Assembly (NCBI RefSeq): GCF_014697475.1
Contig: NZ_JACJRV010000006.1
Coordinates: 62,001 to 126,000 of the forward strand
From: Nostoc sp. FACHB-152
GTDB taxonomy: Bacteria > Cyanobacteriota > Cyanobacteriia > Cyanobacteriales > Nostocaceae
Direction: 5' to 3'
DNA length: 64,000 nt
Shown: piece after piece, positions 42,542-53,957 of the stretch
Layout of the letters: every line of letters begins with the position of its first letter
Numbering within the stretch: the stretch's first letter is position 1
Translations under genes and position numbers: made by a program
Notes under the pieces: model-generated
Database searches by the model: none
Told to the model about the DNA's origin: nothing
The model's input: only the letters and a program-made list of their open reading frames with translations

Positions 42542-42932
42542 ATGTATATTGAATTTTGCTCAACACTCCTGGTTGCACTAGCCAGGGGGTTATCTTATCA
42601 ACAAATTTTAAAAGCTGTTTTTTTATATCTGCATCGAATGAGAAGCTGACTCTGCTTGTAAAGGTGAGGAAGATATTTAAAATTAGAATATATAGCTCAC
42701 AGTAAAAAATTATGATTAATTTCAGTTCTTTAGCAAGCCTGCGAGCGTCCGCCGCGAATTGGTATAAGTTCTAATTCTGTTCCTGGGTAAGCTGGCAAAT
42801 TACATAGTTAAGATTTGTAAAGAAATAGAATTGCAAATACCCTTCTTGGCACGGTAGAAAATTAATGCTGGTTAAAAATCATCAAGCTTGGGAACTCTAA
42901 CAAGAGCAATATCACTAGCTCTGAGGCCACAG
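42542..42932. other. Intergenic region upstream of the MASE1 kinase (391 bp)
   Basis: An imperfect hairpin ACTCCTGG / CCAGGGGGT at about 42565-42592 may end the PHP transcript, though it lacks a T-run. A GC-rich block near 42735-42765 (AAGCCTGCGAGCGTCCGCCG) looks like dispersed-repeat debris. No gene seen. Confidence 0.4.
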
Positions 42933-49585: not shown

Positions 49586-50032
49586 TTAATAAGCGGCTAT
49601 CTCAGCACCAGGATCAATGTAAGGTGCCGGCCCAGTATTATCATGGGTACAGGTAAGAACCATTGTGGTTGGCTCACTTAAAACAACGACTGTAACCCCA
49701 CTGATTGTAGATACAAACGATGCACCAGGTTGTACTCCAGCCGTGGTTGCGTGTCCAGAAATAATCGCACCTGTTTCTTTGGCGCGGACAAAGCATCGCA
49801 CGATGTCGTTGGCAGTATTATTTACAGGTGACGCTGAATAATTAATTATCCACTTACCAGGAGGAAGAGAAATTTGCGTTAGTCTAAGTTCTGCACCTCC
49901 AATAGTAGGCAAATTAAGAGGTTGTGTTGTGTCGGAAAAGTATACTACGTTAATTGCTGTTGCAGGCAGTGTTAAGCTGACTACCGATCCAACAATAGCT
50001 ACCAAGGAACTACCCAATGCTAATGGTTTCAT
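49586..50032 (-). CDS. Small secreted beta-rich protein, function unknown
   Basis: 148 residues with a clear signal peptide (1-26, MKPLALGSSLVAIVGSVVSLT, cleavage after ATA). The mature part is beta-rich (LRLTQISLPPGKWIINYSASPVN, GVTVVVLSEPTTMVLTCTHD) and has two Cys (RCFVRA, LTCTHD) that could pair. It looks like a jelly-roll or C1q/TNF-like secreted sandwich, but no family can be named with confidence. Divergent from the caspase gene with a 385-bp gap. Confidence 0.7.
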   Translation of the reverse strand: MKPLALGSSLVAIVGSVVSLTLPATAINVVYFSDTTQPLNLPTIGGAELRLTQISLPPGKWIINYSASPVNNTANDIVRCFVRAKETGAIISGHATTAGVQPGASFVSTISGVTVVVLSEPTTMVLTCTHDNTGPAPYIDPGAEIAAY

Positions 50033-50417: not shown

Positions 50418-52601
50418 ATGTGTCCAATCGGTGTTCGTACTAGTAAATCAACTCACGCACTGGAAACAGGTGTAGCCAAGCTTTGGCTGATATTGGTAGG
50501 AGTAAATCAATACCAGGATGAGCAAATACCCTGTTTGCGTTACTCTGCAAAAGATTGTCAGGGATTAGCAGCCGCATTAAACGCTGCAACAGGCGGATTT
50601 CCGCAAAAAGAGTTAAGGATTTACTGCGATTACGCCGAGATACCTTTATTAGAAAATATCCGCGCCAGTCTGCAAGAAATTGCAGCTGCAACTAAACCAA
50701 TAGATACGGTTCTATTTTATTTTTCTGGACACGGAATGTTGGAACCATCAACTCAACAGGTGGTGTTGTGTCTACAAGATACTCAAAAAGATAAATTAAT
50801 ACAAACTGGTTTTCCATTACAAGAATTATTACAATTATTAGAAAATTGTGCAGCCCAACAGCAATTAGTTTGGTTAGATGCTTGTCATAGTGGTGATTTA
50901 ACATTGTTGGGGGCAAAGGGAGAAGCAGATCCACAACTTAACCCGACACAAGAATTAGTAGAAATTTTGCGACAAAGAGCCGCCAAACGCAAGGGATTTT
51001 ATGCTTTTTTGTCTTGCGATCGCGGTCAGCGTTCTTGGGAATTTCCTCAACTAAAACATGGAGTTTTCACCTATTACTTAATTCGCGGTCTGCGGGGAGA
51101 AGCCGCAGACTCACAAGGTATCATCGAAGCTGATGGCTTATACAGATATGTTTATCATCAAACATTGGCATATATAGATAAAGCAAATCAGCAATTACGA
51201 GTAATTAATCAGTTAAAAAAAGGCAGAGGAGACAGTCAAATTCATTCAGAATATCCTTTACAAACTCCTAAGCGTATTGTCGAGGGTGTTGGCGAAGTAA
51301 TTTTAGGACTCAAACCAAACGCCAAAGGGTTGTTACAATATCCAAGACAAGCATTGATTGTTGAGGGAAATCCTAAATTTAAAAGTGCTTCAGCTTTAAT
51401 TAAAATCCTCAGTACCTCTGGTAGTTTTGAAACTAATTCTTGGACAATCAGAGGTAATAACGCCACTGCTGATGTACATAAAGCTATTCAAAAATGCTTA
51501 CTATCGGCATCATTTTCTGAGTCAGCAAACAATTCCTCTCTAGAAGAAACTGCAACTACATTTTTATATCTCCGAGGACAAATTCAAGAAAAAGCCGGCG
51601 AAGTAGTATTAGCTATATCTGATAATATAGTCATTACTCGTACTTGGTTAAGAAAACAATTACGTTTGTGTAAATCTCAACAAATTATCGTTGTAGATTG
51701 CATTGGAGAACAAGAACAGAAGCTTTTACGTGATTGGTTTGAAGATTTACATTTAGGCATAGAAACAGGACAATGTTTAATTATTAGTTCTGCGCCCCTA
51801 GATAAAAATGAAAAATTTGTTGCTACTTTATTAGAAATTTTGGGGAAAAATCAAACATCTGGACTCACTGCTGCAAGTTTAATTACTCAGTTACAAATAG
51901 AGTTGAATTCAAGTGATATTCAACTTTATTTCTGGCTATCTGGTTCTCAGGGAATCATTGAAGTGTTTCCAGAAAAGCATTTATTTACTAGCGAAAATTT
52001 TAACCAAGAAACCGAAGATATTGATAATTTAAGTTCAGATGTAGGAGTAGATTACACTCAATTACGTGATTTACTCCAAGCGGGTAGATGGTTGGAAGCA
52101 AATGAAGCAACCACCAGTCTCATGCTAAAAGTAGCTGATAGAGAACAACAGCGTCATCTTAATTTGCAGAGTTTAGAAAACTTTCCTTGTGCTGATTTGC
52201 AAACTATCGATTATCTCTGGGTGAAATACAGTCGGGGACGCTTTGGTTTTAGTGTTCAACAACGTATTTGGCAAAATATTCAAGGTAGTGCAACTGACCC
52301 GGTTTTGTCGTTCATGATTGGGAGTGATAGAGTTGCTGCTGCTGAAACTTGCATTGATTTTGGTAATCGTGTTGGGTGGCGGTTAAAAGATACTTGGGTA
52401 AATTATGATGATTTGATTTGGCATGAAGATGCACCCATTGGACATTTACCATTTTTCGGTTTTTTTGATCAGGTTTGGCGAGTCAAAGTCTTAGGCGTTT
52501 GGGAATGGCATAGTGCGATCGCTACAGCTAGTTGGTGGCAATTGTGTGTTAATTTATTCTCTCGTTTAACACATTGCCAAACTATAGCAAAAGGCAAATG
52601 A
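50418..52601 (+). CDS. Caspase-like protease with pseudo-caspase module and GUN4 domain
   Basis: 727 residues, no signal peptide. Residues ~20-245 are a C14 caspase-like (metacaspase/orthocaspase type) domain with catalytic His105 in YFSGHG and Cys156 in LDACHSGD. Residues ~310-520 repeat the same strand order (VVLAISDN, QQIIVVDCIGEQE, CLIISSAPLDKNEKF) but lack His and Cys, so I read them as a degenerate second caspase fold. Residues ~544-700 are a GUN4 domain (DYTQLRDLLQAGRWLEA, LWVKYSRGRFGFSVQ, FGNRVGWR, APIGHLPFF), known in true GUN4 to bind porphyrins or bilins and stimulate Mg-chelatase. A tetrapyrrole-sensing protease is the inference. The next gene starts 57 bp on. Confidence 0.88.
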   Translation: MCPIGVRTSKSTHALETGVAKLWLILVGVNQYQDEQIPCLRYSAKDCQGLAAALNAATGGFPQKELRIYCDYAEIPLLENIRASLQEIAAATKPIDTVLFYFSGHGMLEPSTQQVVLCLQDTQKDKLIQTGFPLQELLQLLENCAAQQQLVWLDACHSGDLTLLGAKGEADPQLNPTQELVEILRQRAAKRKGFYAFLSCDRGQRSWEFPQLKHGVFTYYLIRGLRGEAADSQGIIEADGLYRYVYHQTLAYIDKANQQLRVINQLKKGRGDSQIHSEYPLQTPKRIVEGVGEVILGLKPNAKGLLQYPRQALIVEGNPKFKSASALIKILSTSGSFETNSWTIRGNNATADVHKAIQKCLLSASFSESANNSSLEETATTFLYLRGQIQEKAGEVVLAISDNIVITRTWLRKQLRLCKSQQIIVVDCIGEQEQKLLRDWFEDLHLGIETGQCLIISSAPLDKNEKFVATLLEILGKNQTSGLTAASLITQLQIELNSSDIQLYFWLSGSQGIIEVFPEKHLFTSENFNQETEDIDNLSSDVGVDYTQLRDLLQAGRWLEANEATTSLMLKVADREQQRHLNLQSLENFPCADLQTIDYLWVKYSRGRFGFSVQQRIWQNIQGSATDPVLSFMIGSDRVAAAETCIDFGNRVGWRLKDTWVNYDDLIWHEDAPIGHLPFFGFFDQVWRVKVLGVWEWHSAIATASWWQLCVNLFSRLTHCQTIAKGK

Positions 52602-52658: not shown

Positions 52659-53957
52659 ATGTCTTTTTTACACAAAATAACCAGGATATTTTTAAGTAAT
52701 AACTCTGGGGTGGCATCATCGGCTACTACCCAACAACCTGTGGGATTGCAACAGCCAGCAAAACCAGCAAAATCAAAAACTATGGCTGAAATAGAACAGG
52801 AAATAGCCGCAAAACAGATGAATATCCCGCCTCAAAAGCCACGTAGCAAATCCAAAGGGGGTATAGGTACTAAGTTAATTTGGCTCACAATATTGCTCGG
52901 ACTTCCCGCAGGTGTAGTTTGGGGTGCTAATCAGCCTTACCCAGTAATTCGTCGTGCTGTGGTGCAGAAAGCACCTGTCTTATTGATACCAAGCTACATG
53001 AGTATGGATCAACATTATCGGCAAGCATTGGCATCAATGCAGCAAGCTGAATACTTGATTGAAAAACCTACAAGTGCCGCAGACTTGGCTTTAGGAGAAC
53101 AACAGCTACAAAAAACAAAAACGCATTTAGATAACTTACCAACTGGGTTGGTTCAAGATTTGCCAGAATACAGATATTGGTGGTATGAATGGCGGTTAAG
53201 CGTTTACGGGTTAAATGCAGCACGTAGTAAAGTAGGGCAGCTAGAAGCTAAAGTTTTTCAAGAAAAAAATGCTCAAACTTTGCTGACTGAGAATAGCCAA
53301 GCATTATTAAATGCCAAACAGCAATATCAACAGGCTACAACAGTAACCGATAAAAAAACTGCGATCGCAACTTGGCGTACAGCACTTGATAAACTAGAAC
53401 AAATTCCTGGTGAAACCCTTGCCGGAAAAACGGCTCAAAATCAACTAGAAGGCTACCAACGAGACTTTAAAGAAATAGTGGGATTAGCAGCTGGTAATGA
53501 ACGCGTCAGTACATTAATTACCGCCGCCCAGCAATTTTCTTGGCAAGCGGCTAAAGCTGGCCAAAATCCACCCCACACCGTCGCTGAATGGCAACAGATA
53601 GAAAATTTATGGCAAGAAGCCATTGAAAGATTAAAACAAATTTCATCCGACGATGTGGTGGGTTATGCAGAGGCGCAAAAGTTGTTAGCAATTTATGAAA
53701 CTAACTTAGGTCAAGTGAAGATCCGCCGAGAAGCTGAGGCTGATTCTGTACAGGCTTTAGCAACAGCGCAACGAGAAATCGAAAACTCACTAGCTTCAAT
53801 TCCTAACGATCCCCAAAATATAGAACGTAATCGGATAATTAGCCAATTGCACAGCATTATTAACCAATTAGAAAATGTAGACAAAGGCACAACTGTTTAT
53901 TTAAAAGCCCAAGAGTTGCTACTATCGGCAAATAATAAATTAAAGCAACTACAGTAG
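52659..53957 (+). CDS. Membrane-anchored helical-repeat protein, partner of the caspase gene
   Basis: 432 residues: a cytosolic, Pro/Lys/Gln-rich N-terminus (1-70), one membrane helix (~75-92, LIWLTILLGLPAGVVWGA), then ~330 residues of almost pure alpha-helix with heptad-like and TPR-like spacing (HYRQALASMQQAEYLI, ALLNAKQQYQQATTVTDKKTAIATWRTALDKLEQIPGETL, NLWQEAIERLKQI, AQKLLAIYETNLGQVKIR). No enzymatic motif. The tail would be outside the cytosol if the helix acts as an uncleaved signal anchor. The 57-bp distance from the caspase gene suggests an operon and a shared process. Family not recognised beyond a cyanobacterial hypothetical. Confidence 0.75.
   Translation: MSFLHKITRIFLSNNSGVASSATTQQPVGLQQPAKPAKSKTMAEIEQEIAAKQMNIPPQKPRSKSKGGIGTKLIWLTILLGLPAGVVWGANQPYPVIRRAVVQKAPVLLIPSYMSMDQHYRQALASMQQAEYLIEKPTSAADLALGEQQLQKTKTHLDNLPTGLVQDLPEYRYWWYEWRLSVYGLNAARSKVGQLEAKVFQEKNAQTLLTENSQALLNAKQQYQQATTVTDKKTAIATWRTALDKLEQIPGETLAGKTAQNQLEGYQRDFKEIVGLAAGNERVSTLITAAQQFSWQAAKAGQNPPHTVAEWQQIENLWQEAIERLKQISSDDVVGYAEAQKLLAIYETNLGQVKIRREAEADSVQALATAQREIENSLASIPNDPQNIERNRIISQLHSIINQLENVDKGTTVYLKAQELLLSANNKLKQLQ

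Follow-up and report, generated by a model that had tools for sequence, protein, structure and literature searches.

An inactive caspase-like domain works beside an active one in separase and CHAT proteases, in gingipains and in the caspase-8/cFLIP pair. Inactive caspases of other systems have been described as regulators or binders (PMC7159879), and a pseudo-orthocaspase of Synechocystis affects survival of oxidative stress (PMC6426788, PMC7889975). Fusions of caspase with GUN4 have also been published (PMC2853523, PMC8283722, PMC5756287); an earlier note on the DNA studied here had suspected that such fusions might be in domain databases. In Table 1 of one orthocaspase survey, GUN4 was present in 29 of 473 orthocaspases, of which 27 had the catalytic dyad and 2 did not; caspase domains were assigned by Pfam in that survey (PMC8283722).

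The window analyzed in this study is a stretch of 64,000 nucleotides from the genome of Nostoc sp. FACHB-152. An ORF at positions 50418-52601 of its forward strand (+), on which all features of the protein described below also lie, starts with ATG and encodes 727 amino acid residues. In addition to the already known fusion of caspase with GUN4, this protein has a pseudo-caspase behind the active-type caspase. In a literature search of main texts, mostly from open-access papers, this arrangement of an active caspase with the dead copy behind it was not found described.

The active-type caspase domain and the second caspase-like module

Residues 25-230 (50490-51107) matched the active-type C14 caspase family (Pfam PF00656, E 2.7e-17). 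The EACC1-type caspase model NF047832 of NCBIfam covered residues 25-248 with 128.5 bits, which is below its cut-off of 140. The conserved caspase unit reaches past the Pfam end at residue 230 to about residue 298 (residues 16-298). The motifs T-V-L-F-Y-F-S-G-H-G and L-V-W-L-D-A-C place His105 (50730-50732) and Cys156 (50883-50885) at the expected positions of the dyad, and both residues were found in 108/108 aligned relatives. These 108 rows were derived from 123 ORFs with the second module, 122 of which also possessed the caspase by phmmer, whereas the remaining one is a fragmentary ORF close to the start of its contig; 13 identical copies and one sequence of fewer than 430 residues were then dropped. 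A strict regular-expression count of the dyad, 94/122, was too strict and is superseded by the 108-row alignment. Residues 16-298 are assigned to peptidase family C14 as an orthocaspase, with a p20 fold and a His-Cys dyad, in agreement with the active-looking domain of the earlier note, and are predicted to be active.

The last part of this unit, residues 265-298 (51210-51311), is a linker found to be conserved by column counts. It contains basic KK-G-R-G and TPKRIVEG segments in the window protein. The pattern K-R-G-R-G / TPKRIVEG is conserved, with G271, Q282, P284, K285, I287 and G292 present in 42/42 of the proteins collected from genomes of the host's class. Given that a preference for Arg is stated for orthocaspases from docking and from earlier work cited in the same paper (PMC8283722), this linker is a candidate self-cleavage region.

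Within residues 231-539 of the 727-residue protein, Pfam gave chance-level matches only. Residues 305-520 (51330-51977), however, aligned with caspases when a profile of 93 such modules was compared by hhalign with 17 other caspase domains. The score was 79.0 (97.1%), whereas the best of 60 column shuffles reached 22.9. The 17 domains included 15 from outside the window's caspase subfamily as cut and two at its edge (L187 and L188). The score against the subfamily's own caspase profile was 46.7 (shuffle maximum 25.9), and those against nSTAND1 and GUN4 were 17.8 and 11.0, respectively. An earlier run with 42 proteins gave 44.1, against 21.5 for the best shuffle and 16.1 for the reversed profile. 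Moreover, the HMM of the module found the caspase domains of L173 and L174 (i-E 6e-4) and, in a small database searched with --max, that of 3 of the 10 caspase-GUN4 fusions without the module (i-E <= 1.2e-6, best 7.2e-10). NF047832 weakly matched 59 of the 93 single modules (best E 1.6e-6); it did not match the module of the window protein. Pfam C14 was not among the 25 families listed of the 31 that were matched by the 93 modules, and a profile search of PDB sequences with the module gave 0 matches. The module is conserved, yet it is unnamed as a caspase by the domain libraries searched.

The AlphaFold2 model of the module, built from 93 sequences, had a pLDDT of 87.4 and a pTM of 0.87, and strands and helices follow one another in the predicted models as in the caspase domain of the same protein. 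In the Foldseek search with this model, ranks 1-22 among PDB structures all belonged to the caspase clan, with TM-scores by query of 0.46-0.61. The best match was AtMCA9 (metacaspase 9, 7.3e-7), and the others included MALT1, caspases 6, 1, 7 and 3, Dronc, legumain and SAVED-CHAT (rank 18). The first non-caspase match was at rank 23 (E 6.6e-3). These matches were clear in rank and moderate in fit, with rmsd of 5-9 A. Together, profile comparison and predicted fold show residues 305-520 to be a caspase homologue of the alpha/beta sandwich type that is predicted to be catalytically dead; the earlier note had proposed this pseudo-caspase from strand order, and its proposal is borne out by both approaches.

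The motifs of the second domain that correspond to those of the first are T-T-F-L-Y-L-R-G-Q and I-V-V-D-C-I, in which the dyad positions are occupied by Gln388 and Ile429. Both catalytic residues noted earlier as missing are indeed lost: Arg386-Gly387-Gln388 (51573-51581) is found in place of Ser-Gly-His, and Asp427-Cys428-Ile429 (51696-51704) in place of Asp-Ala-Cys, with Cys428 one residue away from the lost catalytic position. Most relatives have R/Q/K at position 388 and P at 429. His was found at 388 in 4/108 sequences, Cys at 429 in 0/108 and the two together in 0/108. The YS/YN signature was not found: among the 108 sequences, position 388 was never Tyr, and position 429 was never Ser or Asn. 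The pseudo-caspase of L060:6261-6986 (strand -) is interrupted just after D-C-P, at the loop of the dead active site, by a collagen-like repeat of G-K-Q-G-E-Q.

Other residues of the pseudo-site are nearly invariant: Arg386 is kept in 105/108, Asp427 in 108/108 and Cys428 in 105/108 sequences. Because of this conservation, we infer that the pocket has been re-purposed and is not decaying. If so, the dead copy might itself be the sensor or a substrate-docking domain, its empty pocket binding a peptide or another ligand. For peptidase domains that are inactive and occupy the effector position, roles as dominant-negative regulators or peptide binders have been suggested (PMC7159879). However, the exchangeable C-termini described below already look sensor-like, and a sensing or docking role of the dead copy is considered unlikely here.

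Distribution, selection and exchangeable C-termini

The host genome of 8.6 Mb had 12 C14 and 8 GUN4 matches, and the middle module (query of 231 aa, residues 301-531) was present in a single copy. Among 291 genomes of the host's class, the module was identified in 62 proteins from 46 genomes, whose ORFs ranged from 558 to 1,880 aa. All 62 modules were in an ORF of the window's caspase subfamily, which was cut at E <= 1.6e-44, before a gap to 2.3e-31. This subfamily included at least 80 ORFs in the 291 genomes, 62 with the module and at least 18 without it; the numbers 80 and 18 are lower bounds, as scoring was limited to 8 candidates per genome. The module HMM found 0/20 matches behind the caspase in the 18 module-free ORFs and two weaker caspases, and at least 2 of these 20 ORFs end at a contig end. 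Several of the 20 possess WD40-like repeats or long low-complexity stretches by eye. In L176-L185, which are of the same subfamily and about 1,000-1,260 aa long, long repetitive, charged or low-complexity stretches replace the pseudo-caspase. Given that at least 18 of the 80 subfamily ORFs are without the module, the active domain is able to do without it. Thus, the module seems to depend on the caspase and not the other way round.

A GTDB scan with one motif (QQIIILDCP-like) identified 120 stretches and 107 relatives. Of these 107, 80 loci were kept, and all 80 had cyanobacterial titles, ranging from Gloeobacterales to Nostocales. The 81 module ORFs of the 80 loci included 49 with caspase and nSTAND1, 25 with caspase and GUN4, six with neither nSTAND1 nor GUN4 and one fragment. 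No relative of the module was found in viral contig and phage collections. Relatives that align with query residues up to about 520 are located on plasmids of Rippkaea orientalis (NC_011721.1:2889-4451, 49% identity) and Stanieria cyanosphaera (NC_019749.1 and NC_019765.1, 35-36%).

The median dN/dS of 71 pairs, limited to dS of 0.02-1.2, was 0.095 for the caspase, 0.215 for the module (range 0.039-0.473) and 0.183 for GUN4. The module is under purifying selection, and it is the least constrained and fastest evolving of the three domains. This rate, the lost dyad and the absence of the module from at least 18/80 subfamily ORFs could be taken as signs of a functionless relic of a duplication. 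Purifying selection argues against such a relic, as does the retention of near-invariant motifs across the 62 proteins of 46/291 genomes, which makes this reading very improbable. Because the module is the least constrained domain, it could serve as a binding platform instead of a dimer partner.

Behind the caspase and the module, three types of C-termini were found in the 108 rows, as labelled by phmmer with a single query each for nSTAND1 and GUN4: nSTAND1 in 71, GUN4 in 26 and a 'GPIA' repeat in 11. Of the 62 proteins, 42 were collected and aligned over up to their first 1,000 residues, and Pfam identified C14 in 41, nSTAND1 in 33 and GUN4 in two of these 42. WD40 repeats follow nSTAND1 in L073, the only such protein scanned. 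No NTPase or STAND domain was found by Pfam in the window protein. On visual inspection, the third type (L044:6482-7387, L072:5442-6005, L165:6598-7260 and relatives) has a helical repeat with L-x-GPIAP in two or three copies; the three C-termini scanned had no Pfam match above threshold.

When caspase plus module of the 108 rows were placed in a quick maximum-likelihood tree with midpoint root, the GUN4 rows formed one branch with an SH-aLRT support of 96 and the 11 others formed one branch with a support of 81. The neighbors of the GUN4 branch were nSTAND1-bearing rows (supports 91 and 89), and most of the tree was nSTAND1-bearing. The named GUN4 rows were from Nostocales-type organisms. The simplest account is probably a single replacement of nSTAND1 by GUN4, in Nostocales. 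Caspase-GUN4 proteins also occur without the module. In 39 genomes, at least 11 ORFs paired caspase with GUN4, a lower bound since pairing was done by eye, and 10 of these 11 were without the module, the only one with it being that of the window. Thus, the reading that all caspase-GUN4 proteins are alike was rejected.

Among the window's own genes, no partner gene shared by the module loci was seen; glyS and murD were named by NCBIfam, and the short ORFs inside them were not counted separately. Over 25 loci, the histidine kinase gene at 42888 recurred in 3, which was the maximum, glyS and murD in 2 each, and the remaining window genes in 1 or 0. On the 5' side of the caspase ORF, the nearest ORF (49586-50032) is on the opposite strand, without a Pfam or NCBIfam match, and the next one on that side is murD. 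The downstream neighbor (52659-53957) encodes 432 aa and, as judged by eye, probably has a membrane segment; it had no Pfam match, and a relative with 37% identity was found in 1/25 loci.

The GUN4 domain and pigment binding

Residues 540-690 (52035-52487) matched GUN4 (Pfam PF05419, E 3.1e-42) with 144.5 bits against a threshold of 29.2, and phmmer aligned them to 1z3x, 4ykb and 1y6i. The PDB entries 1z3x and 1z3y are labelled as putative cytidylyltransferase, yet align with GUN4 in sequence. The match extends over positions 2-135 of the 141 of the profile. The C-terminal GUN4 domain, called complete in the earlier note, is thus nearly complete by profile; the segment of the bilin motif LxNxLR, however, is different. 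In the alignment with Synechocystis GUN4 (1y6i), the Asn of LxNxLR corresponds to Gly681 of the window protein. The alignment reaches up to this position, and a reading without gaps after GHLP places F679-F-G681-F-F683-D684 (52452-52469) where LxNxLR is expected. The MAFFT alternative has an 8-residue gap after the Asn/Gly position and aligns K-V-L with Q-L-R. The position of the motif Arg is therefore occupied by Asp in the ungapped and by Leu in the MAFFT reading. In either reading, LxNxLR was absent from 26/26 proteins with caspase, pseudo-caspase and GUN4, whereas the best GUN4 match of the host genome keeps the motif as LSNQLR. The segment is followed by an aromatic tail, Q685-K727 (52470-52598), that contains WRVKVLGVWEWHSAIATASWW. 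By alignment, this tail is largely conserved in GUN4-bearing proteins, the mean pairwise identity of residues 691-720 being 0.76 and the minimum 0.40.

These differences bear on the tetrapyrrole or light switch that the earlier note had proposed, in which GUN4 would bind Mg-porphyrin or bilin and switch the caspase with the photosynthetic or light-damage state. The GUN4 fold is clear by sequence, and in multidomain proteins GUN4 has been proposed to act as a tetrapyrrole sensor that regulates the enzymes attached to it (Kaur et al., 2020; PMC7159879). LxNxLR has been tied to bilin binding, members of the paralog clade are without the motif Asn, and loss of the motif has been proposed to accompany loss of bilin binding (PMC10156173). 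As judged from its sequence, the window GUN4 does not match GUN4 orthologs that act as Mg-chelatase cofactor, since LxNxLR is missing, and for the same reason bilin sensing by it is unlikely. The Asn to Gly difference is the same as in the N219G variant of Chlamydomonas GUN4, which lost bilin binding and kept porphyrin binding (PMC10156173), so the window domain may still bind porphyrin. However, changes of R211 in Arabidopsis GUN4 lowered the affinity for Mg-porphyrin 7.5- and 12.2-fold (PMC8967248), and R211 is probably the last residue of LxNxLR by our own mapping. Hence the proposed switch is weakened, and gating of the protease by tetrapyrrole is regarded as doubtful. More likely than bilin as the signal for the window GUN4 is a ligand similar to porphyrin, or a partner protein.

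The PD-T4-6 model of PADLOC also matched residues 525-720 (E 2.8e-43). As this match covers the GUN4 part, it was not accepted as evidence for defense. Cyanobacterial GUN4 proteins may be mislabelled as the PD-T4-6 defense system.

Proposed mechanism and comparison with known systems

The full-length model had a pTM of 0.69, although 206 of the 727 residues, including about 172 beyond residue 521, had pLDDT values below 50. Since GUN4 was represented in 2 of the 42 aligned sequences, its part of the model was poor. By our arithmetic, a pTM of 0.69 in spite of these residues would require a confident relative placement of both caspase domains in the model. This argument and the pairing of the module with the caspase favor an internal pseudo-dimer under C-terminal control. 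We infer that the window protein is a signaling orthocaspase, in which a constant core of active caspase and pseudo-caspase (residues 16-298 and 305-520) would be placed under an exchangeable sensor, and give this reading a probability of about 0.5. According to this mechanism, the active and dead domains would pack as an internal pseudo-dimer, and a surface of the dead copy would either keep the active domain inactive or stabilize its active site. Signals received by the C-terminal part would alter the packing and switch on Arg/Lys-directed cleavage, which might begin in the conserved basic linker. Most relatives have the nSTAND1 NTPase at this end, in an apoptosome-like layout; in the window protein, this sensor was probably replaced once by a derived GUN4 without the bilin motif.

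Somewhat more tentatively, these proteins may be regarded as a one-polypeptide, apoptosome-like machine of cyanobacteria. By analogy with caspase-8/cFLIP, the dead twin would be an in-cis dimer partner, driven by one of three sensor types (nSTAND1, GUN4 or the GPIA repeat), all of which would be wired to the twin in the same way.

If the dead copy regulates the active one, it offers direct access to the way in which bacterial caspases are held inactive and switched on. Moreover, the swap of sensors within one family lets the same core be tested under three inputs. As the pigment-binding motif is missing here, it should not be assumed that all GUN4 domains sense tetrapyrrole. Finally, as Pfam is blind to the module, a second, dead caspase can go unnoticed in proteins that are classified as caspase-STAND or caspase-GUN4.

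Among known systems, cyanobacterial caspase-nSTAND1 proteins share with the window protein the caspase subfamily, the location of the pseudo-caspase and a single tree. Different from the window protein, they possess the nSTAND1 NTPase, with WD40 repeats in L073, where the window protein has GUN4. In separase, the order of active and inactive domains is opposite to that of the window protein. Similar to the window protein, published orthocaspase-GUN4 proteins possess a C14 p20 domain and a C-terminal GUN4; however, the available text of these papers describes no second caspase fold (PMC2853523, PMC8283722, PMC5756287). EACC1-associated caspases also combine a constant caspase with a highly variable C-terminus (NF047832; PMC7159879). 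Different from this two-gene system, the window protein scored below the NF047832 cut-off, and no adjacent 5' EACC1 membrane-helix gene was found by Pfam and NCBIfam in the upstream ORFs. Similar to the module, the YS/YN pseudo-orthocaspases are cyanobacterial caspase folds whose dyad is lost (PMC6426788, PMC7889975). They are, however, described as p20 domains with their own dyad changed (PMC6426788), whereas the dead domain of the window protein is unmatched by Pfam C14, carries Q and I in place of the dyad and follows an active-type domain in the same chain.
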